Below, piece after piece: positions 3,803 through 30,188 of a DNA stretch of 64,000 nucleotides. A program made the translations under genes and the position numbers. The stretch's first letter is position 1. Each line of letters begins with the position of its first letter. The DNA is from an uncultured Cohaesibacter sp. Its GTDB lineage: Bacteria; Pseudomonadota; Alphaproteobacteria; Rhizobiales; Cohaesibacteraceae. The notes beneath the pieces were generated by a model that made no database searches, had not been told where the DNA came from, and saw only the letters and a list, made by a program, of their open reading frames with translations. The stretch covers positions 2,265,001 through 2,329,000 of the forward strand of contig NZ_OY781114.1 of NCBI RefSeq assembly GCF_963676485.1. The letters are read 5' to 3'.

Positions 3803-5455
3803 ATGTCAGGTCATTATGACAGTCAGCTTTCAGATGGTCTTCCTCGTGTGGGATTAATGGCGGAGGAGGTGCGTTTCACACATCGGCTTTCGCTTATCAG
3901 GCAAAATATGGCCAGCTTTGGACGTCCCGTAATTGCGGGAACCATCGCTTCATGCCTGTTTCTGGCGGGGGCTGCTTTATCGCCTTTTGCGTATCTGTGG
4001 CTGTTGGCTGTTGCAGTTGGAATGCTGGTCGCAGGTAGCCTTCTCTTTCTCTTCTCTCTTGCAAAAAGACGCAAAGCCGCAAGACTGTATCGGACTGGTG
4101 CGTTTCAAAGAGTTGCCGCTGTTTACACTATTGCCGTCTCCCAAAAGTATTTTCTGGTCGCGCAAGCCATTCTCTGGGGGGGATTTGCCTTTCTGGGCGG
4201 CTCATTGCTACTTGCCGGATTGGGGGCGACGCTATTGTCCTATATTTTGGCGGGCGGTTTGATAAGCGCTGGATGCGGACATTTCATTGGTAGTCTGAGA
4301 GCGAAAAGCTCGGTCTTTGGATTGATCTGCTGCAAGACAGAATTGCTTCCGAAAGCTTCTTTGGCTTATACGGCGCGCTATGCCCTTCAGCCTGAGGTTC
4401 GGTTGGCGATGGATATGGCCGCCGACGTTGGTGAGTTGGGGTCTTTGCTGGCTATCATTGCCCAGGAAGATGCGCGGGCTGATGGCGTTGTTTTGCGCAT
4501 ACCCGATTTTGGCGAATGGCCGGGGCTTTCATTCACACGAGAATTTAAGGTGCGAATGAAGGGGAGTTTTGCGCCTCTTGCTTTTGGGGGCATTTCAGGG
4601 CTTTTGGTGGGCATTGTCATGCTCGTTTTCTTGGGGCTTCCTTCTTATACAATTATGGATACTCAGGACCTTCTTTCTTCATCCCCCTCTTTGCAGCAAA
4701 TGGGGGCCTCCCAAAACGCAAACGATAAAGCGCTACTAGGTCTTCAAGGCAAACAGGGTAATAGCCTGATTTCTGACGCCTCTGGGGTTGAGGGGCAGGC
4801 AACAGGCCGGTATCGAGTTTTGACACAAGGGCCTTCAAGCCTTTCCACTGATGCCGAAAATGCAGTCGGAGTGTCTGCTGGAGGGGCGGAGTTGGAGGGC
4901 AATGCCGATGGCCTTCCATCGTCTCAAATGGACCAACAACCGATAGACCAGAGCGGGCAGATGCCGGATCTGAATGCTGCGGATAGTAAGGCGCAAGATA
5001 GCGCTCAGGCTGGGGATAGCCCGACAGATGGAAGCACCGTTGGAGGGGGCGGTGCGCAAGCCGCGCCACAGGGGCTGTCCAATAGCCCGGTTGCTTTTCC
5101 AGACACAAGCCTTGCAAGGGATCGGATCGAAATTGAGTCGCTTGGGCAGAATAGCCGCGCTGCAGATCGCGTCCGCGATCGCACGGGCAATGCAGGCGAT
5201 GGACAAGAATATCGCAGTCGAGCAGGGAAGTCCTCACCGGGATCAAACTCTGCTGGCGCTGGTAAAGGGGCTGCGCAGAGCTCTGCGGTTGAGGAGAAGC
5301 AGCCTTTTTCAGAGCGTGGAACAAAAGCCGTAAAGGTGGAGGAAATTCACGCAGCACAGGCGAATCGTGAGACAAATGGCGTATCCCGTCCCCATATTCC
5401 GGTGCAACAGGTGCCTCACTGGATGAGATCCCTTCTCAAGCCGCAATCACAATGA
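3803..5455 (+). CDS. Unknown multi-pass membrane protein with long low-complexity tail, first gene of MoxR/VWA operon
   Basis: About 550 residues. I do not recognise a family. The N-terminal half has around five hydrophobic segments: two near residues 38-83, two more around 125-175, and one before the motif LGLPSYTIM. A hydrophilic tail of about 230 residues follows, rich in Gly, Ser, Gln, Ala and Asp, which looks disordered. The protein ends in VPHWMRSLLKPQSQ. The frame is open upstream into the HAD gene, so the start is uncertain. I chose the first in-frame ATG after the HAD stop, and TTG starts at 3617 or 3671 would add about 62 or 44 residues. The gene stops 7 bp before the MoxR start, so the two are surely cotranscribed. 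Its position before moxR suggests a membrane partner of the ATPase system. Confidence 0.7.
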   Translation: MSGHYDSQLSDGLPRVGLMAEEVRFTHRLSLIRQNMASFGRPVIAGTIASCLFLAGAALSPFAYLWLLAVAVGMLVAGSLLFLFSLAKRRKAARLYRTGAFQRVAAVYTIAVSQKYFLVAQAILWGGFAFLGGSLLLAGLGATLLSYILAGGLISAGCGHFIGSLRAKSSVFGLICCKTELLPKASLAYTARYALQPEVRLAMDMAADVGELGSLLAIIAQEDARADGVVLRIPDFGEWPGLSFTREFKVRMKGSFAPLAFGGISGLLVGIVMLVFLGLPSYTIMDTQDLLSSSPSLQQMGASQNANDKALLGLQGKQGNSLISDASGVEGQATGRYRVLTQGPSSLSTDAENAVGVSAGGAELEGNADGLPSSQMDQQPIDQSGQMPDLNAADSKAQDSAQAGDSPTDGSTVGGGGAQAAPQGLSNSPVAFPDTSLARDRIEIESLGQNSRAADRVRDRTGNAGDGQEYRSRAGKSSPGSNSAGAGKGAAQSSAVEEKQPFSERGTKAVKVEEIHAAQANRETNGVSRPHIPVQQVPHWMRSLLKPQSQ

Positions 5456-5462
5456 GGAAGTC

Positions 5463-6680
5463 ATGAGCCAATTACCAGCCGAACAAGCAGCCCATTTCAT
5501 GCTGCAGGTCAAGCGGAGCGTGCAGCGTGACATCATTGGGCAGGATGCTGTGATCGAGGGGCTGATTGCTGCGCTGTTCACTGGTGGACATGTTTTGCTG
5601 GAAAGCAATCCCGGCCTTGGCAAGACATCGCTGGCAGTCTCTTTCGCCAAGAGCCTCAAGATGAACGATGGCGCGGGATATGGGCGCATTCAGTTCACGC
5701 CAGACCTTCTGCCCTCGGATATCACCGGCACCTTCATGCCCAATATGAGTGGCTCGGGAGACCCTTTCACTTTCCAGCCGGGGCCGATATTCAGGCAGAT
5801 GCTGCTTGCCGACGAGATCAACCGTGCCACGCCCAAAACACAGGCCGCCATGCTGGAGGCTATGGCTGAGCGCAAGGTTACGGTTTTGGGAGAAACGCGC
5901 TCTCTGGTGGAAAGCAGGGTGCTTTCGCAGAATATGCAGCAGGCCAGATTTGAAACGCCTTTCATGGTGATCGGCACACAAAACCCGATTGATCAGGAAG
6001 GCACGTATGATTTGCCGGAGGCGCAGCTGGATCGCTTCCAGCTAAAGCTCCTCATGGCTCCATCCGATAGCTCAGCTCTGGTGGAGATTGTCGAGCGGGT
6101 ATCAGGTGGCCTGAGCGCCGGTGGGGGCGACGCTCCGGCCCCGCTTGATATCGATGCCTATTCCGCCGATCAGTGCGGCTGGTTGATCGACCAGACAAAA
6201 ACCTTGCTATGCGAGACCAAGATGCCGCGCAAAATAATCGAGCATGCCGTCAATCTGGTGCAGGCAACCCATGGCGCTGCAAAAGCTGCTGAGCTGGTGG
6301 ATATCCCTGCACGGTCTGCAGAGCAGATTGTACAATTTGTCGAACGCTACTGCGAATGGCCATTAGGCCCGCGCGCGGCCATTGCCCTCATTCAGGCGAG
6401 CAAGGCGAAGGCTTTTCTGCTGTCGGCGGAAAATGCCAGCACGCAAATGCAGGCCATGGCGGCAAGAGCCCTGCTGGAGATGACGCCGGGGGCTTTGCGC
6501 CATCGTGTGAAATTTAAATATAGCTGGCAACGGATGGCGATGGAGGATTTCCCCGCCTTGCGTAGCCTTAGGGATATGGAGAAAGTGCGCGATGCGCTTT
6601 TGTTGCATCTGTTTGCCCTTTGTGCGCCTCAGGCTGCCAACTATAACGAATTCTTCAAGCCCCATCTGCTGGACCAATGA
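5463..6680 (+). CDS. MoxR-family AAA+ ATPase
   Basis: A 405-residue cytoplasmic AAA+ ATPase of the MoxR family. These proteins act as chaperone-like ATPases together with VWA-domain partners. The P-loop, SNPGLGKT, is at residues 48-55, and here Ser replaces the usual first Gly. Walker B is LLADEIN at 114-120. The MoxR signature DLLPSDITGT is at 81-90, and the sensor region carries GTQNPIDQEGTYDLPEAQLDRF, typical of MoxR proper. It is longer than the usual 320-330 residues because of extra sequence in the lid region. GAGGAAG precedes the ATG. The DUF58 gene downstream overlaps by 4 bp (ATGA), the classic moxR-DUF58-VWA order. Confidence 0.95.
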   Translation: MSQLPAEQAAHFMLQVKRSVQRDIIGQDAVIEGLIAALFTGGHVLLESNPGLGKTSLAVSFAKSLKMNDGAGYGRIQFTPDLLPSDITGTFMPNMSGSGDPFTFQPGPIFRQMLLADEINRATPKTQAAMLEAMAERKVTVLGETRSLVESRVLSQNMQQARFETPFMVIGTQNPIDQEGTYDLPEAQLDRFQLKLLMAPSDSSALVEIVERVSGGLSAGGGDAPAPLDIDAYSADQCGWLIDQTKTLLCETKMPRKIIEHAVNLVQATHGAAKAAELVDIPARSAEQIVQFVERYCEWPLGPRAAIALIQASKAKAFLLSAENASTQMQAMAARALLEMTPGALRHRVKFKYSWQRMAMEDFPALRSLRDMEKVRDALLLHLFALCAPQAANYNEFFKPHLLDQ

Positions 6681-7648
6681 TCTCTTTGCGCCCCAACCCG
6701 CTTGACCCGGCCACGCTGGAAGACATTTGCGTCAAGGCACGCAAGAGCTTTGTCACGTCCGGCAGCGGTGCTTTCTTGCGGCGCAAGTTGGGGCAGTCGC
6801 TGGAGTATCGGGAGCATCGTTCTTATGTTTTCGGTGATGATGTGCGTCATATCGATTGGCGTGCTTCGCTGCGCCATGGAAGGGCGGACGAGTTTCTCGT
6901 GCGTTCGTTCGAAGCCGAGGAACAATTCCAGCTTCTCGTGATTGTGGATGGCAGCGCCACCATGCGTGCCGGTTTGGGGGAGCTAGACCGGGTGAGCAAG
7001 CTGGAAGTCGCGCTCTGGATTTGTGAGGCCTTTGGGCATGTTGCTGCCAATGGAGCCATTGGTATCGGCTTTGCTTCGCTCGGCCATGCATCGTCAGCGG
7101 ATCGAGTGAGCTTTGCGCAAGGGGGGCAGATCGGTGAAGAGTTTGCGCATTTCTCGCAAGATCTATGGGCTTCGAACGCGCCGGAAGGCAAGGATGAAGT
7201 GCGGATCGGGGGAGAGTTGTCCCGCCTCAAGCAATCATCGGTTACCATCTTCATAACAGACTTCTACCGCACCAATGGTGCGAAGGCTGCCTTTGAGGAA
7301 GCGGTGCAACTGGCTTCGCGGGGCTATCGGCAGGCGGTGGTCTGCGAGTTGAACAGTTGGCCTACGGAGCGCTCCATTCTTGCAGAAGAGATCGTTTCGC
7401 TTGGGGCTGTCGGATCTGTTGCAGGGCGCAGTGGCGCGTTTCAGGCTTCCAACCCTGACCTGGTTGCCGCCGATGATGCCATCCAGTCGCAACGGAACGG
7501 ACATTCCGAAGCGCTTCATCGCGGCGGTGTGGTGCATTTTGCATGGGATTTTCCCGATAGACCCGAGTGGGACGTTATGGTCGAGGAGTTTCGTCTGCGC
7601 TTTCATGATTTTCTTCTTGCAAGCGAATTGTTCGGGAGGGTCGGGTAA
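6677..7648 (+). CDS. DUF58 domain protein (MoxR partner)
   Basis: A 323-residue protein of the DUF58 family, a VWA-like fold regularly encoded next to moxR. The hallmark motif, YxxGDDxRxIDWxxxxR, is at residues 50-66. It is followed by strand-forming sequence ending in LLVIVDGSATM (87-96), a degenerate MIDAS-like motif. No membrane segment is evident, unlike many DUF58 proteins with two N-terminal helices, so it is probably soluble and cytoplasmic. The start overlaps the moxR stop (ATGA), and the stop overlaps the next start (TAATG), indicating translational coupling. It is probably an adaptor for the adjacent MoxR ATPase; the target is unknown. Confidence 0.92.
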   Translation: MISLRPNPLDPATLEDICVKARKSFVTSGSGAFLRRKLGQSLEYREHRSYVFGDDVRHIDWRASLRHGRADEFLVRSFEAEEQFQLLVIVDGSATMRAGLGELDRVSKLEVALWICEAFGHVAANGAIGIGFASLGHASSADRVSFAQGGQIGEEFAHFSQDLWASNAPEGKDEVRIGGELSRLKQSSVTIFITDFYRTNGAKAAFEEAVQLASRGYRQAVVCELNSWPTERSILAEEIVSLGAVGSVAGRSGAFQASNPDLVAADDAIQSQRNGHSEALHRGGVVHFAWDFPDRPEWDVMVEEFRLRFHDFLLASELFGRVG

Positions 7649-9306
7649 TGCTCCTTGGCTTTCTCGCTGTCGGGACGGTTGGGTTCTTTGTTTTGGCGCT
7701 GTTGGTCAAATATATGCGGCGCTCGAAAGTGCGGCATGTGGAGATCTCGTCGCTGCAATTTTTGCCAGATCTTTCCAGGACGCAAAAAGCGCGCGTGCGC
7801 TGGCAACCGGGTATACCCTTGCGCAGCCCTTTATTTTGGTTGCGGTTTCTTATTCTCGTTACGCTTTTCGCTATGCTGATATTGGATGGCGTGCTGATAC
7901 CGGAAAGGAATGCACCTTCCCTCGGTGTGCTTGTTGCCGTAGACCATTCTGCCAGCATGGCAGTGGGTCGCCCCAGCCGGTTGCAATTGGCCAATGAGAT
8001 GGCCGAAGAAATCACCCGGCATGTTGCCGATTTTGGGGGCTGCTTCCGTGTGGTGTCTGTACCAAATGCGACTTCCCAGAATGTGGTGAGTGATACTGGC
8101 GTTTCTCCCATTGCGATGGTGGACGCTCTGTCGGTCGCGCTTGAAGATCAAAGCTGTGGCTGGACCCATCTGGCCGTTGTGTCTGACTTGCCAAGGCCGC
8201 CGCTCTTTGCGCTTTCTGATACACGGGCGTTGCGTAAAGGGGGGTACAGCGACAGGTTGGCCGCCGATCCCTTATGGTTTCAGGTTGGCGAGCCTGAGGC
8301 CAATAGCGCTCTGACGGGCGCCGATTTCAAGGCCGCCGGACTTGGCGGGGGCGACGCGCGCCTGTCGGTTGATGTTGCCCGTTTCGGAGATGCCGCCTCT
8401 AACATATCGCTTGTTGTCACAGGACCACAGGGTGAGCGTTTTATCCCCGATGCGTCGGTTGATCTGAACAAGGGTCACAATGCGACCGCCTCTTTTGCGA
8501 TCACCGAGCCGGGCCCCTATCTTGCTGAACTGAAGGAGGCCAGTGGCTTTACGCTCGACAATCGGCTTGCGCTCTCTGTGAATTCGATTTCTGTGTTGCC
8601 GATTAGGCTGGATGAGGCCCTACGCACCGGACCCTTGGCCGACTTGGTGCGGCACATGGCGCCTGTTGTTGAGGCCGAACGGGATGATGCTGTGCGTATC
8701 GGTCTTTATTCCGACTTCGCTGTACCAAGCGGACGCGGAATCTATCTCGTTGATGGAAAGGGACAAGCGCCGGGAGGCAATGCCCTTGGATATTTCCAGA
8801 AAGACAGTCCCTTATTGGAAGCGGTGGATCTGGATCTGTTGGAAGCCCTCGCTCCGGCAGGGATTGTTTCCTTGCCCGAAGGCTTCCGAGCGGTTGCGTC
8901 CGGTGCTGACGGACGGGTCTGGATCGCTGTGCGAGGGGGGGCGCATCCGGCGGTGCTGATGCCTGAGCCTGCGGGAGGATTGGCCAATGCCGATCTTGCA
9001 GATGAGCAGCATCTGACATGGCTGGTGGCCTTTATCAATGCCTATCGCTTCGTCAATCAGGGGCGGCAGCCCTTGCTGGATGTCTCCCATGTAGATGCGG
9101 CGGGTGCAAAGCTTGAAGGGCTGGCCTTTGAAAGCGATACGTCAAAGCCTATAAGCATCAATCCTGCGCTTGAGGATATTCAGCCTGTTGCCACAGCAGG
9201 GGATGCTCAGACACCGCTATGGCCATGGCTTGCGCTTGTTGCCATTCTTCTGTTGGTGGCTGAACGCCTTGTTGCGCTAAGGCTGAAAGGCGGGAGGACG
9301 GTATGA
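7648..9306 (+). CDS. BatA-like membrane protein with VWA domain
   Basis: 552 residues. Two N-terminal hydrophobic helices (about residues 1-25 and 57-78) flank a short basic loop, as in the BatA aerotolerance N-terminal domain. A VWA domain starts at LGVLVAVDHSASM, with MIDAS motif DHSAS near 98-102. The middle is beta-rich and unassigned. A C-terminal helix (LWPWLALVAILLLVAERLVA) is followed by a basic tail. The VWA domain should lie in the periplasm between membrane anchors. The gene overlaps both neighbours by 1-4 bases. The layout resembles Bat-type VWA proteins that work with MoxR and DUF58. Confidence 0.85.
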   Translation: MLLGFLAVGTVGFFVLALLVKYMRRSKVRHVEISSLQFLPDLSRTQKARVRWQPGIPLRSPLFWLRFLILVTLFAMLILDGVLIPERNAPSLGVLVAVDHSASMAVGRPSRLQLANEMAEEITRHVADFGGCFRVVSVPNATSQNVVSDTGVSPIAMVDALSVALEDQSCGWTHLAVVSDLPRPPLFALSDTRALRKGGYSDRLAADPLWFQVGEPEANSALTGADFKAAGLGGGDARLSVDVARFGDAASNISLVVTGPQGERFIPDASVDLNKGHNATASFAITEPGPYLAELKEASGFTLDNRLALSVNSISVLPIRLDEALRTGPLADLVRHMAPVVEAERDDAVRIGLYSDFAVPSGRGIYLVDGKGQAPGGNALGYFQKDSPLLEAVDLDLLEALAPAGIVSLPEGFRAVASGADGRVWIAVRGGAHPAVLMPEPAGGLANADLADEQHLTWLVAFINAYRFVNQGRQPLLDVSHVDAAGAKLEGLAFESDTSKPISINPALEDIQPVATAGDAQTPLWPWLALVAILLLVAERLVALRLKGGRTV

Positions 9307-11987
9307 CCGCTTGCGAGCTGATTTTTCCGCTTTTCTCGCGCTCTGGCTGGGTTGCAACCTGTCAGGAAACCGGCTGGCCTGCGTCGCTTGCAAGTTGGGG
9401 CGTTGTCGCGCTGGTCGTCGGGATCTGTTTGATCGGGGGCTATCATCTTCTAAGGCACGCCGAGATGGATCGCTCTGTGCGCTTGTGGCGTGCCGGAGCT
9501 TCGCTTTCGGCCTTGATGGCGGCGCTTCTGCTGGCCGTGGCCGCGGGGCGCCCAGCCTTTGTGCATGCTCCTTCGGAGAGGCTGCAACATTTCATTCTTC
9601 TGGTCGATCAGTCAGAAAGCACATATCGACAGCCAGCCCTGCGACATGATCGGATTTCGGCTCTTGCCAAAAAGCTTGTGATATTGGCGGCAGGCAGAAC
9701 CAATACAAGCACGCGTGTGTCTCTTATCGATTTTGCCGCCTCCGTCAGCATAAAGCTCAATCGGGGAAGTCTGGCTGATGGTCTGGCTTTGTTGGTGGAG
9801 GATAGCGGCTCAGACACTCTCTCCCGAGATGGTAGCGATATTGCCGCGGCGCTTGATGCCGCCAAGGCTCTTGCTGACCAGCAGGATGATGATGATGTCC
9901 TTTTCCTGATAAGCGATGGGAATGCAACGACGGCATCGCTTACCCAGCTGGCCTCTCGCTTCAAGGGACGGTTGAATCGGGTGTTTGTCACTTCGCTGGA
10001 TGCCGGAGCGGCCTCAGAAGGGATCATCTCTTCCTATTTACCCGCCAAAATCCGTTCTGGCAGTGAGCCGACCTTGCGGGTTGTTTTTGATCCGGGTGGA
10101 GCTGGCGTCAAAGGGACGAATGGAGAGGGATGGGCTGTTGCCCTTCGGCGAGACGGGATGCCTGTGCCTCTTGAGAATAGCAAGCTGACTTCTACCGACG
10201 CTCTTGAGGCGCTGCGTATTCCCATCCGGTTCGAAGGGCGCGGGCTGCAATTCGCCTCATTGGATGTGGCAAACGGCAAGCAGGCTTTCAGTGAACGAAT
10301 CTTCACGTTGGTGGAAGCGCCTGTTCGGGTTCTGGCGCTCGGTGATACAGGGTTTCTTTCTGCGCTGCCACAAGACAGGTTCGAACTTGACCAGCGCAGC
10401 GGTGCTGATCTTTCGGGGCTGGATGATTTCGATATCGTCGTGCTGGGCGGTATGGGGGCCTCTCAGTTTCAAATGGGCGATCTGGACCGGCTGGCTGACG
10501 CAATAAAGAGCCGCGGGCTCGGTCTGTTCCTTGTGAATGGTGCCATGGGCGATAGCACAGAAGAGCCGACCGTGGTGCAGAGCTATCAAGACACAGCGCT
10601 TGCTGCGCTGTTGCCTGTCTCGCCAGACCCGAAATATCTGTTGGCTGATCCGCCGCCGCGGGACACCATCGTGTTGGTGGATACCTCCGGCTCCATGGCG
10701 GGGGGCGGGCTTGCTGCCGCGCGGTTGGCGGTTGCCGATATTCTGGATTATTTGCGCCCTGAGGATTCTCTGGAGGTGATCACCTTTGGCGGTCTTACGA
10801 CGGGGCGACAGATGGGGGATGCTCAGGGCAAGCAGGTGATTCGAAATTTCGCCAGCCGCTTCCCGACAGGCGATAGCTCGAATGTTTCACGCGCTTTTGA
10901 TCGCGCATTGGCTGCAACGGGCAATTATACATCGGTTTTTCTGATTACGGATGGCATGGTTGATCCTTACGACTATGCGAAGGCGGGATTATCCTTTTAT
11001 TATCTTCAATATGGCAGCGGCGCGACGCCGCTCAATGAGGAGATCGCCAAAGCGGCGCGGCAATCTCAGGTCTTGCAATTTGGACAGGGGCTTTCGTTCA
11101 AGCCGGATTCCTATGATCCGGAAGAGCGGGCAGAATTCTTCACTCCGGATCTGGTACACCCGCGTGCTGTTGCGCCGATTGATGGTATCTCGGGTGGATT
11201 GGCAACCTCCGGCGTGGCTTTTACCTATGCAAAGGCCGATGCCATTCGGGCGCTTGTCAGCGATGGACTTGAAGGGGAACCCGTGCTCGCATTTCACAAA
11301 CCGGATCAGTTGAAAAGCGGCAATACGGGCGTCTTTCTTTCTGCGCTCGACGGTGCATGGACCGGCAGCGAAGCGGGACGTCGCACGATTGAGACGAGCC
11401 TCATGCAGCTGGTCAAATGGTCCGATCGCAACCGCTATAGCTTCCGGCTTCACGATTTTGGCGACGAGATTGCGCTTCGGGTGTCCGTTGCCAGTGATAA
11501 AACCGATGCACCCCTGCCTCAGACCCTTTCGGCAACCCTGTTGCTTGCGGGGCAATCCATCGGCGTGCCCATGGCTGCTGTTGAGGGCGAACGGGGCGTG
11601 TTCGAAGGGCGCTTTGCCTTGCCCGACGGGAAAGTGGCGCCTGAAGAGGCTTCTGCATCTGCCCGCAAAGGTGCGGTGGCCAAGGGGCTCCTCTATTTGC
11701 AGGAAGGTGGCGCGGGCGCACTGGTGCAGCCCCAGGCTATTCCTGTTGCGCTTCCTTATGCTGTTCCACGGCAAGGAAACCGCTCGGAAGCGGCAAGTTA
11801 CGGGACCAACCTTTCCGGGCTGACGTTGCTGGCTGAGGCAACGGGAGGGACGGTTGATCATTTGCCTTCCGTGCGCGAGCAGGTCCGACTCCTTTCTGTG
11901 CAACCGAAGCCGATGCACAGAGTGTTTCTGCTTTTCGCTACGATCTTTTTTGGCTTGTCCTTCCTGATGCGAGGCAGCCGCTTATGA
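9303..11987 (+). CDS. Large membrane-anchored protein with two VWA domains
   Basis: 894 residues. The N terminus has two hydrophobic helices (about 30-52 and 65-84). Two separate VWA-type MIDAS motifs follow: DQSES at about 102-106 in HFILLVDQSESTYR, and DTSGS at about 460-464 in DTIVLVDTSGSMAGGG. The second domain continues through VITFGG and VFLITDGMVDPYD, typical VWA strands. Beta-rich sequence follows, and a C-terminal helix (FLLFATIFFGLSFLM) ends the protein. It probably projects most of its mass into the periplasm. Its start overlaps the previous stop, and its own stop overlaps the next start. Two VWA domains in one Bat-like protein is unusual. Its molecular target is unknown. Confidence 0.85.
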   Translation: MTACELIFPLFSRSGWVATCQETGWPASLASWGVVALVVGICLIGGYHLLRHAEMDRSVRLWRAGASLSALMAALLLAVAAGRPAFVHAPSERLQHFILLVDQSESTYRQPALRHDRISALAKKLVILAAGRTNTSTRVSLIDFAASVSIKLNRGSLADGLALLVEDSGSDTLSRDGSDIAAALDAAKALADQQDDDDVLFLISDGNATTASLTQLASRFKGRLNRVFVTSLDAGAASEGIISSYLPAKIRSGSEPTLRVVFDPGGAGVKGTNGEGWAVALRRDGMPVPLENSKLTSTDALEALRIPIRFEGRGLQFASLDVANGKQAFSERIFTLVEAPVRVLALGDTGFLSALPQDRFELDQRSGADLSGLDDFDIVVLGGMGASQFQMGDLDRLADAIKSRGLGLFLVNGAMGDSTEEPTVVQSYQDTALAALLPVSPDPKYLLADPPPRDTIVLVDTSGSMAGGGLAAARLAVADILDYLRPEDSLEVITFGGLTTGRQMGDAQGKQVIRNFASRFPTGDSSNVSRAFDRALAATGNYTSVFLITDGMVDPYDYAKAGLSFYYLQYGSGATPLNEEIAKAARQSQVLQFGQGLSFKPDSYDPEERAEFFTPDLVHPRAVAPIDGISGGLATSGVAFTYAKADAIRALVSDGLEGEPVLAFHKPDQLKSGNTGVFLSALDGAWTGSEAGRRTIETSLMQLVKWSDRNRYSFRLHDFGDEIALRVSVASDKTDAPLPQTLSATLLLAGQSIGVPMAAVEGERGVFEGRFALPDGKVAPEEASASARKGAVAKGLLYLQEGGAGALVQPQAIPVALPYAVPRQGNRSEAASYGTNLSGLTLLAEATGGTVDHLPSVREQVRLLSVQPKPMHRVFLLFATIFFGLSFLMRGSRL

Positions 11988-12934: not shown

Positions 12935-12966
12935 GCGATGTTGATGCGGTTTTATGGAGTAAGTTG

Positions 12967-19686: not shown

Positions 19687-19687
19687 G

Positions 19688-22600: not shown

Positions 22601-25600
22601 GTGCTGCCGACGTTTGCAGGCAGCACCGCCAATGTGGATGTCTGGGCGAAAGAGGATGGTCTGGTTGTAACCCAAAGCTATCAGGACGGGCCCACTTTGG
22701 GAGCTGTTGCCGACCCTGAGCTCTCCTCCATCCCGCTTGCAAGGCTGGATCAATGGGGCATGTCTGCCCTTCCCATCGCGCCTGAAGCCATAAAGGATGT
22801 TGTGCGCCTATCCAATGGCAATTGGCTTTATCTGACCGATAATGCTGCCGTCATCACCGAAGCACCAGACCAGCCGAATGCCCGTGTCTCTGCCCCGATT
22901 GCGTTGCCTTTTGCGGCCGGGGGACGGTCCGTTGAGGAGCAGAACGGGCAGATCGTGATTTCTGATGGGAAAGACGAGGCGGCTACCGCATCGTTGTTGA
23001 TCATCGACCCCCAGACGGCCTTTGCACACGAGGATACAGTGCCAGCGCATTTTTCCTATCAACCGGAGCGGGGGGAAACTGTAACGGTTCTTGCCGACAA
23101 GCAGTTGATCAGGAAATCGGCGAATGGCGCCGTCAGTCTTTGTCATTGGGACCAAGGGCAAACAGCTTTGTCCCGATGTGCCCCTTATGAACCGCAGCAA
23201 GGGAACGCTGGCTCACTTGAGCTACGTGAGGAGCAGGGACAGATTGTCATCAAAGCGGGATCGACTGTGGTGGCCCGCCTTGAAGGGCAGTTGGGCAGGA
23301 TAAAAGCGCCAGCGGCGGCAACGGCCTCGGTTCAGTGGGATCGTGACAAGGGCGCTTTTTCCTTTCTGGATGCGGATGGCTCCCGATTCTGGTTGCCTGC
23401 CGGAGAGGCCTTGCCTGATGGCCGGTTCGCTTTTGCCGCACCGGGACGCGCAGTCATGTTGGATGCCGCGCATTATATGGTTGCGAACCGGTATGGCGTT
23501 TGGGTTTACCAGACAGGGGCCGAGCCCTCGGTGCGCTGGAGGCGCATGACGTTGCCAGAAGATTTTCGCGCAGCTGGCAAGGGGCGGATCTATTTCGCAG
23601 ATGGGCGTTCCATCGGGCCGGATGATCCTTATCCGGTTCAGGCCAATGCCGAATATGCGGTTTCGCTTGGTGCGCTGGATGTGAAAGCAAAGGTCGGTGG
23701 CGGGATCCTCTCGGCACACTGGTCTGACGGCCTCAAGATATATAAGGCCTTTTCTGAGCATGGATTTTTCTTTGACCAGAAGCAGGATGTGGCCTTTTCC
23801 GATGGGCAGGCATGGTTCCTGACGCCCGTCGGACTGATTTCCGCTGATGACCTTGGCCGGACCATGCCTCTGCCGTCGGCACAGTCGATATTGATGACCA
23901 GCGTAGGCGACAGGCTTTTTGCGCTTGAAGGGCGCAAACAATGGCTTGTTCTGGATGTGATGGGTTGGCAGCGGGCGGATAATCCCTTTGCGGATCGTCA
24001 GATCGCCTATGATCAGGATCTTGTCTGGCTTTATCAGAATGGACGACTGATTACGCGTTCCACCACGCGCACCATGAGCGCGGAGCGGCGGCTGGGGTTG
24101 CGCTTTGAAAGCGATATCCTGTTTGACGCGGCCTTTTCAAAGCAGGGGCTCGTGGTGCGGCTGGGTGATGGCGTGCGGCAATATTCAGGCTTTGACGGGC
24201 TTTCAGCTACAGTGGATGCCAAAGCCGAGTTGCCCTCTGGCTTGCGGCTGGCTGTACGCCCCATGCGCGATGGCGAAAGGCAAGTTGTGGCCGTAACCCG
24301 GCGTGGGGCCATTAGCAGACGCTGGAACGGAGAGGCTTTTGAACGTGTTGCCTATGACGATAACCCCGACATCGAGCGTATCGCCGCGTCCATGGATTGG
24401 CTGCGCGTGCGCTTTGTGGCGGGCAAGCCATCGGTTGAGCTGAAAACAGAAATGGTCGGTTTTGAAGATGGTTGGACGTCGGTTGCATGGAACAAGGGCG
24501 AGCCAATGCCGATGGATCGCTTTTTGTCGGTCTATGGTCGCGATGGCGTTCTTTATGCCGGTTCGCCTGTTGGTTTGCAGCTTTTGAAGGTGGAGGATGG
24601 CAGGATAGCCAGCCAGCGCTTTGTCGAGCTGGGGCGCGGTTTGACTTCGCATGAAGCGGTCTTTCATATTGGTGCCTATCGCAATGGGCGTGCACCTGTT
24701 TATGCGCTGGGGTCAAAGCACTGTTTAGCGATTGATCAGGGTGTTATTCTGCCCTGTGAAGGGGGGGATGATGTCTCCATTGAGGATTTGGGGGGGAATG
24801 ACTTCTGGCACTGGGAACGGACGCAAGGGCGCATCTTGCTGGGCTATTCCGACGGGAATGAGCAGCCGCTGGGCGCGCCGTTTGTGCTGTCGCCAACAGG
24901 GCGTTTTCCGCATGATCAGCTAGATGATATTATCCGTTGCGGCGGGACGCTGGCTCAAAGCTGGCATGGCAATTTTACCGCTCTTGATGAGACTTTCGGA
25001 TTGGGGCTGGCAGATGCCCCCAAGGCGGCGGGGGACGAAAGCAAGGGCCGCAGTCTTCGCTTCCTTAAGGAGGGCACTGTTGCACTCTCCTGCCAGCCGG
25101 AAACCGTGGCCCCTTCAGCCAGCGAGCCGCAGGGCTTACCCGAGGGGCTTTATATCGAGGCAGGCGATCTCTGGCGCTGGAGCCGCGAAGGGCTGGAGCC
25201 CGCGAACGGACTTGCCGAAGCGCTTGCAGCACGCAAAGACAACCGGATTGCCTATCAAGCCGAACGAATGCGGGTGCGCAATGCCAAGAGCGGTGTGCTG
25301 TTTGACTATCGCAATGAAGATCAATGGCGGCCGCTTGCCTTTGCCGGAGGGCGGCTTGCCATCGATGAGCGGCAAGGGCTTGTGTCTGCCAAGGGGCAGA
25401 TATGGTCCTATTCGCCGGAGGGCTTTTCGCCGGTTGCGGCCACAGATGGGACAATCGATCCGGATCATTTTGTGCTTTATTCCCTTAAAGGCGTTGCGGA
25501 TGTGCCAGCCTGCCGGTTTGATCGGGCCCAGACGGCCAATGATGGCTCTTCCCATCTTATTCTTGAGGACGAGAATGGCGACGAGCCGATAACGCTGCTC

Positions 25601-26905
25601 CGTTGTCAGGATGGGCGTTTCTGGCAGGGGCAGCTGGATGGCAGAGAAACAGATACCCTCTTTACCTTGCGACAGGATCAGAGCAATCCTTTTGAGACAC
25701 GGCGCATTGTTGGTGATGCAAAGACTGGTATCTGGTTGATCGGTCGCACGGCTGGGCGCGAGGGGACATTGCAGTTCCGCTGGCATGGAGAGGATAACGG
25801 GCTTTCTGGGGGACGCTTTGCTCTGGATGCCATCCGGCAGATTGCCCAGATCGAGCCGAAGCGCATAGACATGATGACTGGCCTTGGCTGGGTGCGACAG
25901 CCCGTTGGCCGCTGGGAAGCGGAAAGCGGGATGCGTGCTGCCAATGATACCGGGCTTGCTGCGAGTATCCGTTCATTTGGGGCTGATGCCGATGTTGACC
26001 GTGTGCTGGACAGAGGGAGGGTAGCCATCCGCTCGCTTTGCCTTGAAGACGAAAATGGTCGCTTCCATCGCTGGCGGAGCAACGGACAGCTTGATCAGGT
26101 AGAGGCCTGCGATGCCTTGTTGGCTGATGACGGGGAATTTGCTTACCGCGATGGAGAAGGAGCCCTCCGCATAACGGCGGCAAGCCTGAATGGCAGCAAG
26201 ATGGTGCGCCGTCTGGTCGATGGTCACTTTAGCGATCTGGTCGCGCGTGGCCATGCTGTTTTGTCTCACTATGAGGGCGCACAGGTTATTGCCATTGGCA
26301 GTGAGAAACGGGTGAATCTGTTTGATCCGGATAGGCTGGAGTGGCTGGGCGCCTGGGCCTTGACGCGTGATCCCCAAACCCTGTTTTTGGATGAGGCTGG
26401 CGATATTGGCGCTGTTTTTGAAAAGGGACGCTCTGATATGCGTGGGCAGGCATCCTCTTTCTGTAAAGGCTTTGATGTCTTGCGGGAGCGATTGGGGCGC
26501 CAGATGGCCGGAAAGCTGCGCGGGTTCGAGGTGATGGACGGGCGCGCCTATGTCGATATTCTGGATGAGAAGGGTGCGCTTCAGACAATGGCGTTTGATT
26601 GCGAGGATGCTGGCAACGCGCTTGTGGGGGATGTTGCCGAGCTGGAAGGCCGTATACGCTATTTGAGCAATTTCGAACTGTGGGGGCGTCCTGCGGCCCT
26701 GCTGTCTCTTCTGGCTGGCCCGGAGAATATGCTTATGTCACATATCGGAGACAAGCAAGCCGCTGTTGGAGCGCTTTCTTCGCGGCCGCTTTTTATGCGG
26801 CGCATTGGCGAGCGCTTTGTTATTCTGGATTCATCGGAGATCTATCAGGCGGATCTGGATGCCCTGCTTTCCTATACCATTGAGCAAGGAGCCCGTCATG
26901 AATGA
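19688..26905 (+). CDS. Giant 2405-residue membrane-anchored protein with probable tandem beta-propeller repeats
   Basis: 2405 residues. The basic N terminus (WRSRTLDRIEAKRRAIERIVPLRRRMD) precedes one transmembrane helix at about 33-54. About 2350 residues then presumably extend into the periplasm. The rest is a monotonous series of short beta-strand-like units with turns such as GIYRYDRMKRNWQQL, GLGLFDLVHRNWVP, IWRYDSIRREWSS and VWVYQTGAEPSVRWRR. These resemble blades of WD40/PQQ-type beta-propellers, but are too diverged to count blades by eye. No catalytic motif is evident. Scattered Cys occur, consistent with a periplasmic location. It starts 2 bp after the preceding gene and overlaps the following one. 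By context it is the main structural or sensing component of the MoxR/VWA system. Confidence 0.85.
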   Translation: MFSQWRSRTLDRIEAKRRAIERIVPLRRRMDAILLSLLGLLLFCVVALGVMLANGHMRFGWFDPDPIQPLPDDRLVTNIRDETAQSAGAFVAASYQESANRLSILREKGLLHSVNLKTGVWSDDTSLDEVTGINSAFVDLSPACPTQTSKALSHCADKTGLFAYSADGGLVVRDKAGWRTVLPDSRFIGASGEAVQHDDLVNVVVSANKRWLLLATKADGLGLFDLVHRNWVPIPVAKQQAILGDETLKAPSHMVAFGDEILLGTQKGLMAVSFEDDGQVGSSGLVSDGLGTILDMTVFEKDALILASNACEGGVCLALYRYEASGELKRLFGETQLYPELSQAGLSRALVAEDGKTILMLGEAGIYRYDRMKRNWQQLLDEAVSTYLEDPSVNGIYFATAGKVGLLERSGKITFWPLAGQSVTSLARNGVGVLLAQTASNQTWRIAGDEVAMLNDGAAAKEPLANMKRAVSAFNRLVMIGDTYLVLHDIRKRSYVSIPRASLSPGLLFGAETQLFGSDEILWGLSGDELEAWRLAGTDSEPSLERLAHTWLSSGPRSVHKDGDGLLFVDAEGRPFRARAIGHSIQIKGLLGQADAERGPVRDVISQGDLTYLARDRRVSVYSLKERGFVDTLSMPLNEDIREIARVGGALYLLGSNGSLVEEGRGERLTGSNKPFSFPSAQIFDAMSNGEALFLASGNGVTSYSPTKRRVTNSLRFDASGPLRFAGLAGSVPIVYDGRNAWFGDESLAIDGARVLSASKVGEDIASVQYDGAVTFLVRHSIKDGAIASPSCYYRNPGPAGEDIIDVAAVPDVGVVSLVGNALWLRDQPHRRFVGFTLSASNLPRNARISVIDDYLVVHNEQEAWIVALAQLRTSDSCSRVNEDLTNETTRLSADQLAVSKSGNLVGLLYADGEYRIWKGGGLSVLIPAIEGPQPVPQGFQSVAQIGKALYFADDRSIWRYDSIRREWSSTVLPTFAGSTANVDVWAKEDGLVVTQSYQDGPTLGAVADPELSSIPLARLDQWGMSALPIAPEAIKDVVRLSNGNWLYLTDNAAVITEAPDQPNARVSAPIALPFAAGGRSVEEQNGQIVISDGKDEAATASLLIIDPQTAFAHEDTVPAHFSYQPERGETVTVLADKQLIRKSANGAVSLCHWDQGQTALSRCAPYEPQQGNAGSLELREEQGQIVIKAGSTVVARLEGQLGRIKAPAAATASVQWDRDKGAFSFLDADGSRFWLPAGEALPDGRFAFAAPGRAVMLDAAHYMVANRYGVWVYQTGAEPSVRWRRMTLPEDFRAAGKGRIYFADGRSIGPDDPYPVQANAEYAVSLGALDVKAKVGGGILSAHWSDGLKIYKAFSEHGFFFDQKQDVAFSDGQAWFLTPVGLISADDLGRTMPLPSAQSILMTSVGDRLFALEGRKQWLVLDVMGWQRADNPFADRQIAYDQDLVWLYQNGRLITRSTTRTMSAERRLGLRFESDILFDAAFSKQGLVVRLGDGVRQYSGFDGLSATVDAKAELPSGLRLAVRPMRDGERQVVAVTRRGAISRRWNGEAFERVAYDDNPDIERIAASMDWLRVRFVAGKPSVELKTEMVGFEDGWTSVAWNKGEPMPMDRFLSVYGRDGVLYAGSPVGLQLLKVEDGRIASQRFVELGRGLTSHEAVFHIGAYRNGRAPVYALGSKHCLAIDQGVILPCEGGDDVSIEDLGGNDFWHWERTQGRILLGYSDGNEQPLGAPFVLSPTGRFPHDQLDDIIRCGGTLAQSWHGNFTALDETFGLGLADAPKAAGDESKGRSLRFLKEGTVALSCQPETVAPSASEPQGLPEGLYIEAGDLWRWSREGLEPANGLAEALAARKDNRIAYQAERMRVRNAKSGVLFDYRNEDQWRPLAFAGGRLAIDERQGLVSAKGQIWSYSPEGFSPVAATDGTIDPDHFVLYSLKGVADVPACRFDRAQTANDGSSHLILEDENGDEPITLLRCQDGRFWQGQLDGRETDTLFTLRQDQSNPFETRRIVGDAKTGIWLIGRTAGREGTLQFRWHGEDNGLSGGRFALDAIRQIAQIEPKRIDMMTGLGWVRQPVGRWEAESGMRAANDTGLAASIRSFGADADVDRVLDRGRVAIRSLCLEDENGRFHRWRSNGQLDQVEACDALLADDGEFAYRDGEGALRITAASLNGSKMVRRLVDGHFSDLVARGHAVLSHYEGAQVIAIGSEKRVNLFDPDRLEWLGAWALTRDPQTLFLDEAGDIGAVFEKGRSDMRGQASSFCKGFDVLRERLGRQMAGKLRGFEVMDGRAYVDILDEKGALQTMAFDCEDAGNALVGDVAELEGRIRYLSNFELWGRPAALLSLLAGPENMLMSHIGDKQAAVGALSSRPLFMRRIGERFVILDSSEIYQADLDALLSYTIEQGARHE

Positions 26906-27899
26906 AGCCCCTGCTAGCACTCTGACGGTCGGCGATGCTGTCTTTTCTTTCAGCGAGACAAATCTCAAGGTCAAGGCTGGTCTGTTGCAAGGGCAGGGGA
27001 TTGACGATAGCGTACTGCTTTCGGGACGTGAAGAGCGGCTTGAATGGCTCTGGCAATGGTCCTTCTGGCTCGATAGGGAAAGGGAACCTCTGCAGTCTGT
27101 GTCCGATGCGCTTGATGCGGATAGCATCTTGCGGGATTTGTTCGATTATTCCGCAAGGCAGGAGAGCAATCAACAGGGTTGGGTGCAAGTCGAGGCCATG
27201 CCGGCGCTTTCAAGATGGGCCGCTTTTGTTGCGGGGCAGACCTGGTTGCCGCGCAGGTTTCGGGCCTCGCAAGGGAAGCATATTCACGCCCACAGGCAAA
27301 TCATGGCGCAGTGGCTTGATGGTGAGGTGGAACGCTGGGAAGGCATGCGCGCTGATGCTGCTGAGGAACAGCAAACCGAAGGCCCCTATGAGGCCTATCT
27401 GGGTCACCTGCGCCGCCAGATAGAGGCCGGACGCTTTTCCCTTGAAGTGAAAACCGCCTTTCAGGCCTTGCTTCAGCGTATTTGCCCTCTGATCGAGCTT
27501 GTCGAACTCAAGAGCGCAGATAGCGATAATCTCATCCTGATGCTGAAGATTGCCGATAAAAATGGACAATTTTCCGAGCCGCGCCATCAGCCATCCAAAG
27601 CGCTGGATCGCCTTGATCACGTGCAGGGAGATGCGGTTGCGGAGCAGCGCCTCAAAGAGGTGGGGTATCGAGTTGCAATTCTGGTCAGTGAGATGCTGCA
27701 AATTATGCATTGTCGCAGAAATCAGGTTGCCATGGCCTTCATTATGACGCACCATGGCGCGAGTAAAACTGTGTTTGCAATCACATTTAAAGCAACTCTT
27801 TTATTGACCTACCGGTCTTTTATTCTTTCCGCTATAGGCAGGCGGTTCGTCCCCGATCTGCCGATCTGTAAGACTCTTAAATTGCATGAACTCTTATAA
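26898..27899 (+). CDS. Hypothetical protein downstream of the giant propeller gene
   Basis: 333 residues, not recognised. The ATG at 26898 has AAGGAG about 6 bases upstream and overlaps the stop of the giant gene, which supports it over the longer open frame upstream. Most of the protein is helical and charged with no membrane helix. The C-terminal 60 residues, from about FIMTHHGASKTVFAITFKAT, differ in composition and are hydrophobic. They may be a frameshifted or recently extended end, so the true stop deserves a check. It overlaps the next gene by 14 bp. Confidence 0.65.
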   Translation: MNEAPASTLTVGDAVFSFSETNLKVKAGLLQGQGIDDSVLLSGREERLEWLWQWSFWLDREREPLQSVSDALDADSILRDLFDYSARQESNQQGWVQVEAMPALSRWAAFVAGQTWLPRRFRASQGKHIHAHRQIMAQWLDGEVERWEGMRADAAEEQQTEGPYEAYLGHLRRQIEAGRFSLEVKTAFQALLQRICPLIELVELKSADSDNLILMLKIADKNGQFSEPRHQPSKALDRLDHVQGDAVAEQRLKEVGYRVAILVSEMLQIMHCRRNQVAMAFIMTHHGASKTVFAITFKATLLLTYRSFILSAIGRRFVPDLPICKTLKLHELL

Positions 27900-29829
27900 T
27901 CCGTCGCGCCAGAATGATCGCGCTCCGCTTTATCCCGAAATCCGTTCATTTGTTCTCTCTGGTGCGCGGCTCTGGAGCATGATTGCGTTCCTGCTGCTGG
28001 GGCTCGCGGCCTTTCTTGCCCTATGCCTTTCGATGCTGTGGGCGCTCGATGTGGTCAAAGGAGCCGGATCGCTCTATGCGCAGTTCAGCTTTCTGATCAA
28101 TGGGGCCAACCCGATGCTGGTGTTGCCATGGCTCAGCAAGGCCGTTGATATTTTCAATCAGGCGAGGGGAAATTCCGCTTTCGATCTGGCTGCATGGCAT
28201 CTTCTCTTCTTCATTTGCCTGCTGCTTTTTGTTGCGCATATCTGCCGTTTTGAGAAGCCTTCGGGGGAGAGCCTGTTGCTCTATCCTGCGGCTCGGGGGG
28301 TGGCGGAGCGATTGCTACGGCGGGTGGGCTATTTTGTCGATATCCGCCTGCCCATCGGTAAGGGCGGTGAGGCGGGCACCGACTTTTTCGGCGAGGATCA
28401 GATTTTTTATGCGCCAAGAGGGCATCTTTCCCGCATTCTCAAAGGCAAGCGGTCCGATAGCGTGCAAGAGCGCTTGGTCTTTTTCATGGTGCATGAATGT
28501 GCGCATGCGGTGAGCAAAGACAATCTGGCGAATTCGGCATTCGTGGTGATTGTCGCTCTGTTGACCTTCATGTTCCTGATGGTTTTCGGCCCTCTGATGC
28601 TTATGGGATCCACGGTGTTATCGATGACGCCCATGGGACCATCCCTCACCCTGCCGCTTTCCATCGTCATTTTCCTCAGCTTTAGCGCCGGGGTTTATCT
28701 GTCTTTCAGAGGCATGATTGTTTCCTACATCAAGGCGCGTGAATATTTTGCCGACGCAGCCGGGTTTCACTTGGTAAAGGAGGCTGAGGCGCCCTACGGG
28801 CCTGAAGGGCTTCCTGCCAGACCGGATGCCTCCTCAGCGCTCAGAACCGAGATCTCACCTTTCGAGCGGGCCCTCCATCAACGGGGCGTGAGCCTTCATG
28901 CGCGGGATATGCTGATCTATTTCTGGGGCTTCTTTTTCAGTATCCGCACCTTGTATGTGCTGGTCGCGCCGAAGGATTTATGCTGGACGGTGCTGGGCTT
29001 TGATGTGGTGGCACTTGGCGCTTTTGCCTGCCTCTATGTCACGTTGCCCAAACGCCCTGCGAAGCCCGAGCGGCGCGGTGGTGTGGCGTGGTTTCTGACC
29101 TTTCTTGCCGTGATGGCCGTGGAGGTTTGCGGACCCGGTCTTATTGGCTCGGTGATGATGTTCTATCGTGGTATTTTCTCCAACTTCAATGCGCAATTGA
29201 TCGGGCTGCCCGGAGCTATCCTTTTTCTTGTTTTTGCCATTGGCGGTGTGGTGAAGGGCATCCGGTATCTGATCTCGGGGCAGGTGTCCTTTTCCTGGCA
29301 AAAGGGACGAAGCTTGCAGCGCCTTGGGTTGTTTTCGCTCTCGGTTCCCGGAGCTGCCGTGGGCTTCTTCATGCTTGTTGTTTGCGGGGTGGTCTTTTGC
29401 ATCATTCCGCTCAATTATTTTCTGCGCTTCGGGCTGTTTCATGCAAGGTTGATTGAAAGCGGTTTGTTGCTGTTGTTTGCCATGGGCGGATTAACGCTGC
29501 TCTTTCATCAATATTTGCTGCTGTTCGTGCGCAAGCTGCCTGTGGTCGTGGCGGTTTCGCTCATTGAGGCGGGGCTCTTTTTCCTGTTTGCCTGTACGCT
29601 CTATCTGGGGCAAGTCGATATCATGCAAGGGGTTCGCCAGGGAGTGGTTCATACCACACCGAGCCTTGATCGCTTTCCCCAGCTGTTTGCTCAGGCTCCC
29701 TGGTCTTCGGTTTTGCCCGTGGCGATCATTTCGACCGGCTTCTACCTCCTGTTGCGCTTGCTTGCATTTTGGGCACAGGATACCTTAAAGCGAATGGATA
29801 CAAGATGGGCACAGGAGAGTGGCCGATGA
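27886..29829 (+). CDS. Multi-pass membrane metalloprotease, M48-like (HtpX-type motif)
   Basis: 647 residues. Two transmembrane helices precede the zinc motif HECAH at residues 203-207 (VHECAHAVSKDNLANSAF). This is followed by two further helices and AREYFADAAGFHLV, in which Glu286 is a plausible third zinc ligand and Asp290 is in the usual position. This arrangement fits peptidase M48. Around eight more hydrophobic helices follow in the C-terminal half, far more than in HtpX. The active site should face the cytoplasm in HtpX-like topology. It overlaps its neighbours (14 bp upstream, ATGA downstream). The substrate may be a member of the same cluster or a membrane protein under quality control; this is inference. 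Confidence 0.85.
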   Translation: MNSYNPSRQNDRAPLYPEIRSFVLSGARLWSMIAFLLLGLAAFLALCLSMLWALDVVKGAGSLYAQFSFLINGANPMLVLPWLSKAVDIFNQARGNSAFDLAAWHLLFFICLLLFVAHICRFEKPSGESLLLYPAARGVAERLLRRVGYFVDIRLPIGKGGEAGTDFFGEDQIFYAPRGHLSRILKGKRSDSVQERLVFFMVHECAHAVSKDNLANSAFVVIVALLTFMFLMVFGPLMLMGSTVLSMTPMGPSLTLPLSIVIFLSFSAGVYLSFRGMIVSYIKAREYFADAAGFHLVKEAEAPYGPEGLPARPDASSALRTEISPFERALHQRGVSLHARDMLIYFWGFFFSIRTLYVLVAPKDLCWTVLGFDVVALGAFACLYVTLPKRPAKPERRGGVAWFLTFLAVMAVEVCGPGLIGSVMMFYRGIFSNFNAQLIGLPGAILFLVFAIGGVVKGIRYLISGQVSFSWQKGRSLQRLGLFSLSVPGAAVGFFMLVVCGVVFCIIPLNYFLRFGLFHARLIESGLLLLFAMGGLTLLFHQYLLLFVRKLPVVVAVSLIEAGLFFLFACTLYLGQVDIMQGVRQGVVHTTPSLDRFPQLFAQAPWSSVLPVAIISTGFYLLLRLLAFWAQDTLKRMDTRWAQESGR

Positions 29830-30188
29830 TGATTGATGCAGAGCAGCTTCGCAAGGAGCTTACCAAGGCCATGGCCGAGGCTGTCGATGAGGCCGATAGC
29901 TATGAAGATTATTTCGGCGAAGGCACAGATAGCGCAGATTACGGCGTTGCGCGCGCCGATGGTGTCATGCCTGCCGATATTCTGTTTCTATGGAACTATG
30001 CCGGTCAACTGGTCGATTATATGACCCAGTATGGCCTTGATGCGCTCGATCTGGCCGAGCGTGCAGGAAACCTCTTCCTTGCTTTTCAGGCATTGAAGGG
30101 CGTGAAAAGCGATTTTGACAATAGCGAGAAGAAAAAGATACAGAGCGCTGCTGAAGAAACGTTGCGTGATCTGGTGGATAAAAAGTAG
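29826..30188 (+). CDS. Small acidic hypothetical protein, last gene of MoxR/VWA operon
   Basis: 120 residues, acidic and helical, with no membrane helix. The N terminus is rich in Glu and Asp (EAVDEADSYEDYFGEGTDSA), and the C terminus is basic. I chose the ATG at 29826 in ATGATG, which overlaps the stop of the protease gene and has AGGAG about 8 bases upstream; the frame is open further back only inside that gene. Function unknown. It is the last gene of the coupled run; the next terminator is at 30357. Confidence 0.75.
   Translation: MMIDAEQLRKELTKAMAEAVDEADSYEDYFGEGTDSADYGVARADGVMPADILFLWNYAGQLVDYMTQYGLDALDLAERAGNLFLAFQALKGVKSDFDNSEKKKIQSAAEETLRDLVDKK

Follow-up and report, generated by a model that had tools for sequence, protein, structure and literature searches.

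Among the closest described counterparts of the locus analysed here, a block of 15 genes in an uncultured Cohaesibacter sp., are the MoxR–von Willebrand factor A (vWA)–beta-propeller ternary systems, which form subsystem 4 of Kaur, Burroughs, Iyer and Aravind 2020 (PMC7159879). The block lies in a 64,000-nucleotide stretch of contig NZ_OY781114.1 (positions 2,265,001 to 2,329,000, forward strand), referred to here as the window. In the strict description of a ternary system, the vWA protein ends in a propeller of some four blades, and the third component is given as consisting of a variable N-terminal part, a transmembrane (TM) segment, tetratricopeptide repeats (TPR) and a propeller (PMC7159879). 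The same account describes a GxxxTAKS variant of the P-loop, frequent in the propeller and FtsH ternary systems, and notes that some vWA domains of MoxR–vWA systems lack the aspartates (PMC7159879). The names bpX are those of Pfam; the term is absent from the main text of PMC7159879.

Fifteen open frames, all on the + strand, fill positions 3803–30188 of the window, as given in a preliminary description of this DNA. The tight coupling claimed there was borne out: 11 of the 14 internal junctions overlap, by 1–14 bases, and the remaining three leave 1, 7 and 32 bases between the frames. Upstream, 203 bases separate the block from a HAD-like gene, and downstream 247 bases separate it from a TRAP transporter; promoter and terminator scans at both ends of the block stayed within one standard deviation of shuffles. 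All 15 genes stand in the same order in 8/8 block-bearing relatives (gene 1 is partial in one, G004), and a core of 11–12 genes is kept together and in order in four alphaproteobacterial lineages. The block is thus almost certainly one conserved multi-component system, and the suggestion that it is a conserved unit rather than a coincidence was well founded. Its genes and their features, all on the + strand, are as follows.

3803–5455, +: gene 1, 550 residues; about five TM helices followed by a low-complexity tail of 273 residues that changes fast and carries a conserved peptide at its end
5405–5437, +: C-terminal motif of gene 1, QQVPHWMRSLL, pattern PxW[IMLV]xxL[ILVM]
5463–6680, +: gene 2, 405 residues; first MoxR ATPase, AAA_3 type (168.8 bits)
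6677–7648, +: gene 3, 323 residues; DUF58, soluble vWA-type MoxR partner (53.1 bits; no TM)
7648–9306, +: gene 4, 552 residues; BatA-like, with two N-terminal TM, DxSxS at residue 99 and a C-terminal TM (weak Pfam match)
9303–11987, +: gene 5, 894 residues; two vWA domains (DxSxS at residues 102 and 460) between two N-terminal and one C-terminal TM
11984–12934, +: gene 6, 316 residues; conserved across relatives, weak in Paracoccus (E 0.008–0.009)
12967–14058, +: gene 7, 363 residues; bpMoxR or RavA-like ATPase (PF20030, 158 bits, cut-off 27)
13132–13155, +: P-loop of gene 7, GPPGTAKS, in 12/12 homologues
14058–15701, +: gene 8, 547 residues; helical N-terminal part, vWA-like C-terminal part lacking DxSxS; predicted to partner gene 7
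14955–15698, +: vWA-like part of gene 8, residues 300–547, by low-confidence model and fold search
15694–17889, +: gene 9, 731 residues; locus-specific, C-terminal part coiled-coil-like by weak matches
17882–18403, +: gene 10, 173 residues; single TM, fast-changing
18400–19686, +: gene 11, 428 residues; two TM
19688–26905, +: gene 12, 2405 residues; giant propeller-like protein with one strong N-terminal TM
19784–19840, +: N-terminal TM of gene 12, residues 33–51, with five K/R ahead
19955–23191, +: N-lobe of gene 12, residues 90–1168, all-beta propeller-like model
23192–26902, +: C-lobe of gene 12, residues 1169–2405
26898–27899, +: gene 13, 333 residues; found in Cohaesibacter and G162
27886–29829, +: gene 14, 647 residues; multi-TM M48 metalloprotease (Pfam 25.1 bits, cut-off 20.3)
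28492–28506, +: zinc site of gene 14, HExxH as HECAH, with the third-ligand motif EYFAD at 28741–28755
29826–30188, +: gene 15, 120 residues; small protein in 8/8 block-bearing relatives, not found in G162, Paracoccus or G956

Above cut-off, Pfam recognises gene 2 as AAA_3 MoxR, gene 3 as DUF58, gene 7 as bpMoxR and gene 14 as M48, and finds vWA in two stretches of gene 5, in agreement with the two MoxR-type ATPases, the DUF58 protein and the M48-like protease read from the sequence earlier. Two Bat-like vWA proteins had also been proposed; gene 5 answers to this with its two vWA stretches, but the BatA match of gene 4 falls short (16.3 bits against a cut-off of 25.9). Genes 1, 6, 8–13 and 15 have no Pfam match above cut-off, and NCBIfam gave nothing above its cut-offs. 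With the ternary systems the block shares a bpMoxR with GxxxTAKS, a predicted vWA-like partner without DxSxS, propeller-like structure and a membrane-anchored component. It differs in that no bpX domain was found and in having a separate 2405-residue propeller-like protein, no vWA–propeller fusion having been seen; it also adds a second MoxR, DUF58, Bat-like vWA proteins and M48, and its giant protein is predicted to be periplasmic with disulphides. The family assignment proposed in the preliminary description holds for the bpMoxR and for the propeller-like modelled half of the giant, but not for the bpX domains or the extra MoxR–DUF58–Bat genes. Homology between the block and the propeller ternary systems lies in the bpMoxR, and perhaps also in the vWA partner.

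Within Cohaesibacter the giant protein is found in 9/18 genomes, the window's own included, and in 0/23 other genomes of the same search. Spacing in the relatives is as tight as in the window, except for a scripted late start of gene 12 (G012 and G014) and a change of frame in gene 7 of G001. The claimed start of gene 1 at 3803 is upheld by four of eight relatives, which align from its first residue. A comparison of the window with G010 shows more divergence at third codon positions than at first and second positions in 15/15 genes, which suits genes held by selection. Two irregularities may reflect decay or assembly error: gene 1 of G004 is apparently shortened to 301 residues (L017:5510–6415), and the last residues of gene 7 of G001 (L020) lie in another frame. 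Flanking genes are common to most of the eight relatives (the HAD gene in 6/8, DctQ in 7/8, DctP in 7/8 and DctM in 4/8). Six relatives carry the HAD gene along with the block, and theirs share 66–81% identity with that of the window (in G004 and G012 the stretch fetched did not contain it); in nine block-less members of the genus the identity is 53–62%. By eye, in eight block-less members the genes after HAD are an SbcCD-like pair (G008, G013), urease (G006, G015, G016), or regulators and others (G009, G011, G017).

Beyond the genus the block is rare and patchy. In the order, the gene 9 profile matches 7/297 genomes, namely six Cohaesibacter and G162, a member of another family; block-bearing genera number 2 of the 122 sampled, and the conserved gene order across Hyphomicrobiales that the preliminary description had suggested looking for was not found. 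G162 has genes 1–14 in order between different flanks, and gene 15 was not found there among frames of at least 80 residues. In the class, the gene 12 profile matches 4/385 genomes: the window's own, G956 in full length, G718 in fragments and G792 over a short part. G956 has genes 1–12 in order, gene 1 being recognised solely by a model that already included a Paracoccus sequence. G718 was excluded from the block count, its matches to the giant being clear (E 1e-60 and 4e-26) but its contigs (3.5 and 4.6 kb) unable to show neighbours; G792 was excluded as its match spans about 124 of 2661 positions. The G792 frame itself (780 residues, L054:4757–7096; E 1e-4 to a short part of the giant profile) perhaps merely shares a propeller repeat. 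Across a phylum sample of 398 genomes the window's own genome alone matches, both with gene 8 (a Cohaesibacter-only profile) and with gene 12, and a non-exhaustive scan of named genomes with two gene 9 peptide patterns matched C. marisflavi and C. haloalkalitolerans alone.

Genes 2–5 have the same series of components as the MoxR–DUF58–Bat operons of the aerotolerance type: an AAA_3 MoxR, DUF58, a BatA-like protein and a two-vWA membrane protein. Here, in contrast, the module is joined to a bpMoxR and a giant propeller, and the BatA match lies below cut-off. The first glycine of the gene 2 P-loop is replaced in 10/12 homologues, those of Paracoccus retaining it. By a strict pattern DxSxS is lost from gene 3 in 4/12 and from gene 4 in 3/12 homologues; both sites of gene 5 are kept in 12/12. 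Hydropathy and charge give genes 4 and 5 two N-terminal TM, vWA domains outside and a C-terminal TM. Gene 1 changes fastest, with 48–51% identity to its nearest relatives against 91–92% for gene 2. Its tail, 257–433 residues long across homologues and rich in small and polar residues, carries the pattern PxW[IMLV]xxL[ILVM] in 13/13 homologues, where the motif begins 9 to 17 residues from the end; an eye-level alignment places a Q three or four positions ahead of the motif P. Five TM helices and positive-inside charges would place this tail in the periplasm, beside the vWA domains. Since vWA domains capture extended peptides (PMC7159879), the terminal peptide is proposed as a candidate vWA ligand.

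Gene 7 is RavA-like but lies far below the RavA equivalog cut-off of NCBIfam (117 bits against 681). Gene 8 is modelled, at low confidence (mean pLDDT 65, pTM 0.48), as an N-terminal helical part followed by a C-terminal alpha/beta part; in this model the order of elements suits a vWA fold, and the vWA-like domain ends the protein. A similar arrangement is found in ViaA, the RavA partner, which has a helical N-terminal and a vWA C-terminal part. A Foldseek search with the gene 8 model gave nothing at E ≤ 0.001; a vWA domain is mentioned in seven of its 50 listed titles, and also listed are Sec24, SpaC, factor B, Ku, integrin, Rpn10, TRAP and INTS13/14, which we take to be vWA proteins. DxSxS is missing from gene 8 in 12/12 homologues. 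Its profile matches the bpX0–bpX1 (vWA) protein of Hymenobacter over about 45 residues leading into the first vWA strand, and one of 3000 shuffles scored as high. Gene 8 looks like a degenerate vWA partner of gene 7.

Gene 12 had been described as a 2405-residue propeller-like membrane protein. One TM and a match of its first 1168 residues to propeller proteins agree with this, but no Pfam match, TPR included, was found at E ≤ 0.1. Seventeen of its 19 cysteines never vary among eight sequences whose identity falls as low as 23%, compared with 239 of 2405 residues overall (hypergeometric p 8e-16, a statistic that ignores relatedness); the cysteine at residue 792 is kept in 6/8 of these and in 12/12 sequences of a separate N-lobe alignment. 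With residue 792 included the cysteines form nine near pairs, which may be periplasmic disulphides. The invariant cysteines and the five K/R before the TM suggest that the protein is periplasmic. An AlphaFold2 model of residues 1–1168 from ten sequences (mean pLDDT 73.6, pTM 0.41) has one long N-terminal helix followed almost entirely by short strands, and Foldseek matched it to 1523 PDB chains at E ≤ 0.001 (lowest E 2e-19). The top matches, whose global TM-scores are low, are Trm734, megalin, ROS1 and DDB1, all of them presumably multi-propeller proteins. The N-half thus looks propeller-like, and the packing of its blades is not settled by the model. Sequence searches of solved structures with genes 8 and 12 gave nothing at E ≤ 1. 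The two lobes abut at residues 1168–1169 (23189–23194), as they do in G010; in six of the other aligned relatives about 100 to 360 additional residues lie between them.

A search of 72,556 plasmid records with the gene 9 protein gave two matches, which align one third to one half of the query at 23–25% identity, on the conjugative megaplasmids pBEN of Paracoccus versutus and p_IV of P. aminovorans. On both, profiles find genes 2–12 in order (gene 6 weakly, E 0.008–0.009) and do not find genes 13–15; a gene-1-like frame, placed by position, TM helices and terminal motif, stands ahead of the core. Downstream of the giant, p_IV encodes in turn a protein of 617 residues that matches TerB_N in part, one with TerB_N, TerB and TerB_C, an ATPase of the BrxC/D type and a DEAD helicase. 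PADLOC recognises the last three as SngA, SngB and SngC, at 294, 567 and 864 bits on p_IV and at 285, 573 and 849 bits on pBEN. SngABC constitute Shango, which in plate assays protected modestly, by 10–100-fold, against many Pseudomonas phages (PMC10250203). The 617-residue frame of p_IV begins within the final bases of the giant gene, and SngB begins at the SngA stop; the other two junctions are short gaps, assuming the first ATG. Shango thus follows the core directly in these two relatives and is not in the window. The question whether the block travels with phage defence accordingly has a divided answer: it does on two related Paracoccus plasmids, but in Cohaesibacter sngB is absent or elsewhere, and the block does not require Shango. 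A search of 18 genomes for sngB found a match in six, strong in four Cohaesibacter (G003 and G012, which have the block, and G013 and G016, which do not) and weak in G006 and G008; where the block exists, the strong matches lie far from its place. On p_IV the block and Shango are flanked by a serine recombinase and an integrase-core transposase (L041:38896–40710 and L041:5645–6637). In P. versutus a staphylococcal-nuclease-like protein with an Excalibur domain (L040:5963–7024) directly precedes the gene-1-like frame, the pBEN flanks having been scanned in part.

The 3' end of the block therefore differs by lineage: Cohaesibacter has M48 together with genes 13 and 15, G162 has M48 and gene 13, Paracoccus has Shango, and G956 has a single gene of 380 residues that neither Pfam nor PADLOC matches. 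In gene 14, HExxH and the downstream glutamate motif (ExxAD) are kept in 10/10 homologues, G162 included. From their position, the variable 3' genes may be outputs. Homology of gene 13 to the same-position genes of G956 and Paracoccus was not supported (hhalign probability <1%), despite a similar-looking motif, and a TerB-like domain in gene 15 ('ARADGVM') was not supported against one TerB sequence.

The explanation that we favour, at a little under an even chance for the whole, is that the block is an envelope sensor-chaperone with an exchangeable output and that defence against phage or invading DNA is its most likely purpose. On its anatomy the sensor-chaperone part is likely. Defence is plausible, with a chance near one half, and is argued for by the patchiness, the plasmid carriage and the single linkage to Shango. 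The block would encode one machine across the inner membrane. In the cytoplasm, a bpMoxR ring (gene 7) is predicted to act on the vWA partner (gene 8) and gene 9, while the second MoxR (gene 2) and DUF58 (gene 3) would act on the Bat-like proteins of genes 4 and 5, whose vWA domains are predicted to be periplasmic. Genes 10 and 11 are putative membrane links, and gene 12 a predicted periplasmic stack of beta-propellers on one TM. Propellers and vWA domains may detect an envelope event, either phage or plasmid entry or damage, and the gene 1 peptide, on its flexible periplasmic tail, may be a ligand or clamp held by the vWA domains. ATP-driven remodelling by the two MoxR rings would then set a threshold and free the output. 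In its most specific form, this would be a two-motor transmembrane sensor-chaperone in which a periplasmic multi-propeller receptor and vWA domains hold the gene 1 peptide and the MoxR rings turn a periplasmic signal into the release of a swappable effector in the cytoplasm or membrane (M48 or Shango), gating an anti-phage system from outside the inner membrane; so detailed a version is unlikely to be right throughout.

Several points weigh against the sensor-chaperone explanation. Its topologies rest on hydropathy, and the method that gives about five TM helices in gene 1 of the window gives four in five homologues and one in the shortened gene of G004. The gene 1 pattern was written after the sequences had been seen, and nine of its 13 homologues are from Cohaesibacter, so that it represents four lineages. 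Structurally, the giant has a low pTM and a model that covers residues 1–1168, with the C-lobe outside it; the gene 8 model is of low confidence, and the hhalign probability of the match between gene 8 and Hymenobacter is 5%. No bpX domain was found by Pfam in any of the 15 proteins at E ≤ 0.1. The link to Shango amounts to one lineage, because pBEN and p_IV share one replicon cluster and their giants are 81% identical. A search for sngB alone found none in the window's genome, G162 or G956, and a scan of viral contigs with two peptide patterns found no homologue. Finally, in the window the block is preceded by a 23S–5S rRNA operon and then the HAD gene, and the HAD identities and shared position would suit one gain in a subclade followed by inheritance.

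Some of these points favour a housekeeping envelope machine, in which MoxR–vWA couples serve the assembly or repair of complexes in the membrane and periplasm, the propeller protein is a scaffold and M48 clears misfolded membrane proteins, with no role in conflict. MoxR–DUF58–Bat and M48 proteins are linked to envelope stress and quality control, and the block keeps a similar position in most block-bearing Cohaesibacter and looks vertically inherited in one subclade. MoxR–vWA couples are also described as assembling complexes (PMC7159879). Against this, 9/18 Cohaesibacter genomes have no match, conjugative plasmids carry the core next to Shango, and it is rare elsewhere. A housekeeping role deserves serious weight, yet it probably does not hold.

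That the block is an ordinary, merely large ternary system of the kind described by Kaur et al. appears distinctly improbable, even with its bpMoxR match, its GxxxTAKS P-loop and a gene 8 that weakly resembles the canonical vWA protein. In the same Pfam test, a canonical Hymenobacter plasmid system shows five genes in a row with bpX4, bpMoxR, bpX2, bpX0–bpX1 and bpX3, whereas bpX0–bpX4 were not found in the 15 proteins; a rescan of genes 1, 6, 11, 13 and 15 of the window found no bpX at E ≤ 10. Genes 9–12 show no similarity to the canonical Hymenobacter proteins at E ≤ 0.05, and the MoxR–DUF58–Bat module is extra. Nor was a vWA–propeller fusion seen: genes 4 and 5 have no propeller match in Pfam, and gene 8 has no such fusion by its low-confidence model. 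Gene 12 combines a TM with propeller-like repeats, without a TPR match at E ≤ 0.1 and with a model covering its N-half. The block is not filed as a member of the ternary systems, because bpX was looked for and not found and the fusion was not seen. A bpX2 search of 200 genomes had no match, controls included, and is hence uninformative. That two or three unrelated operons adjoin by chance has next to no probability. MoxR–DUF58–Bat and bpMoxR/RavA genes do occur separately elsewhere (RavA is listed in E. coli records), but four lineages share one order of 11–14 genes, on plasmids as well as at differing sites in chromosomes, and this rules out coincidental neighbours.

Other observations concern the remainder of the window. 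Positions 1–2532 hold a 23S rRNA, its 5' end cut off, and a 5S rRNA, upstream of the HAD gene. Antisense to the 23S rRNA, a 152-residue frame on the - strand (1700–2158) is 97–100% identical in four relatives, with two more added; it is surely not a gene. ARAGORN calls a tRNA-Arg at 49482–49560 inside a Band_7/SPFH gene on the same strand (48927–50084), which is likely a false call, and at 45966–47750 a FIST sensor domain is fused to a GGDEF diguanylate cyclase.

A word search of the open-licence literature (few subscription papers, and not bioRxiv) found no article pairing Shango or Cohaesibacter with MoxR, and none combining MoxR, vWA and M48, MoxR, TerB and von Willebrand, or MoxR, DUF58 and phage defence. 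New here are the core that runs into Shango on both Paracoccus plasmids and the PxW terminal peptide of gene 1. To our knowledge, MoxR–vWA conflict systems rest mainly on genome predictions. The locus offers handles on their triggers and released products: a receptor-like giant protein with conserved cysteine pairs, a terminal peptide present in 13/13 homologues, a 3' module that can be exchanged, and a coupling in nature to Shango, a system with measured activity against phages. If the sensor-chaperone explanation is true, surveillance of the envelope would be linked to intracellular defence.

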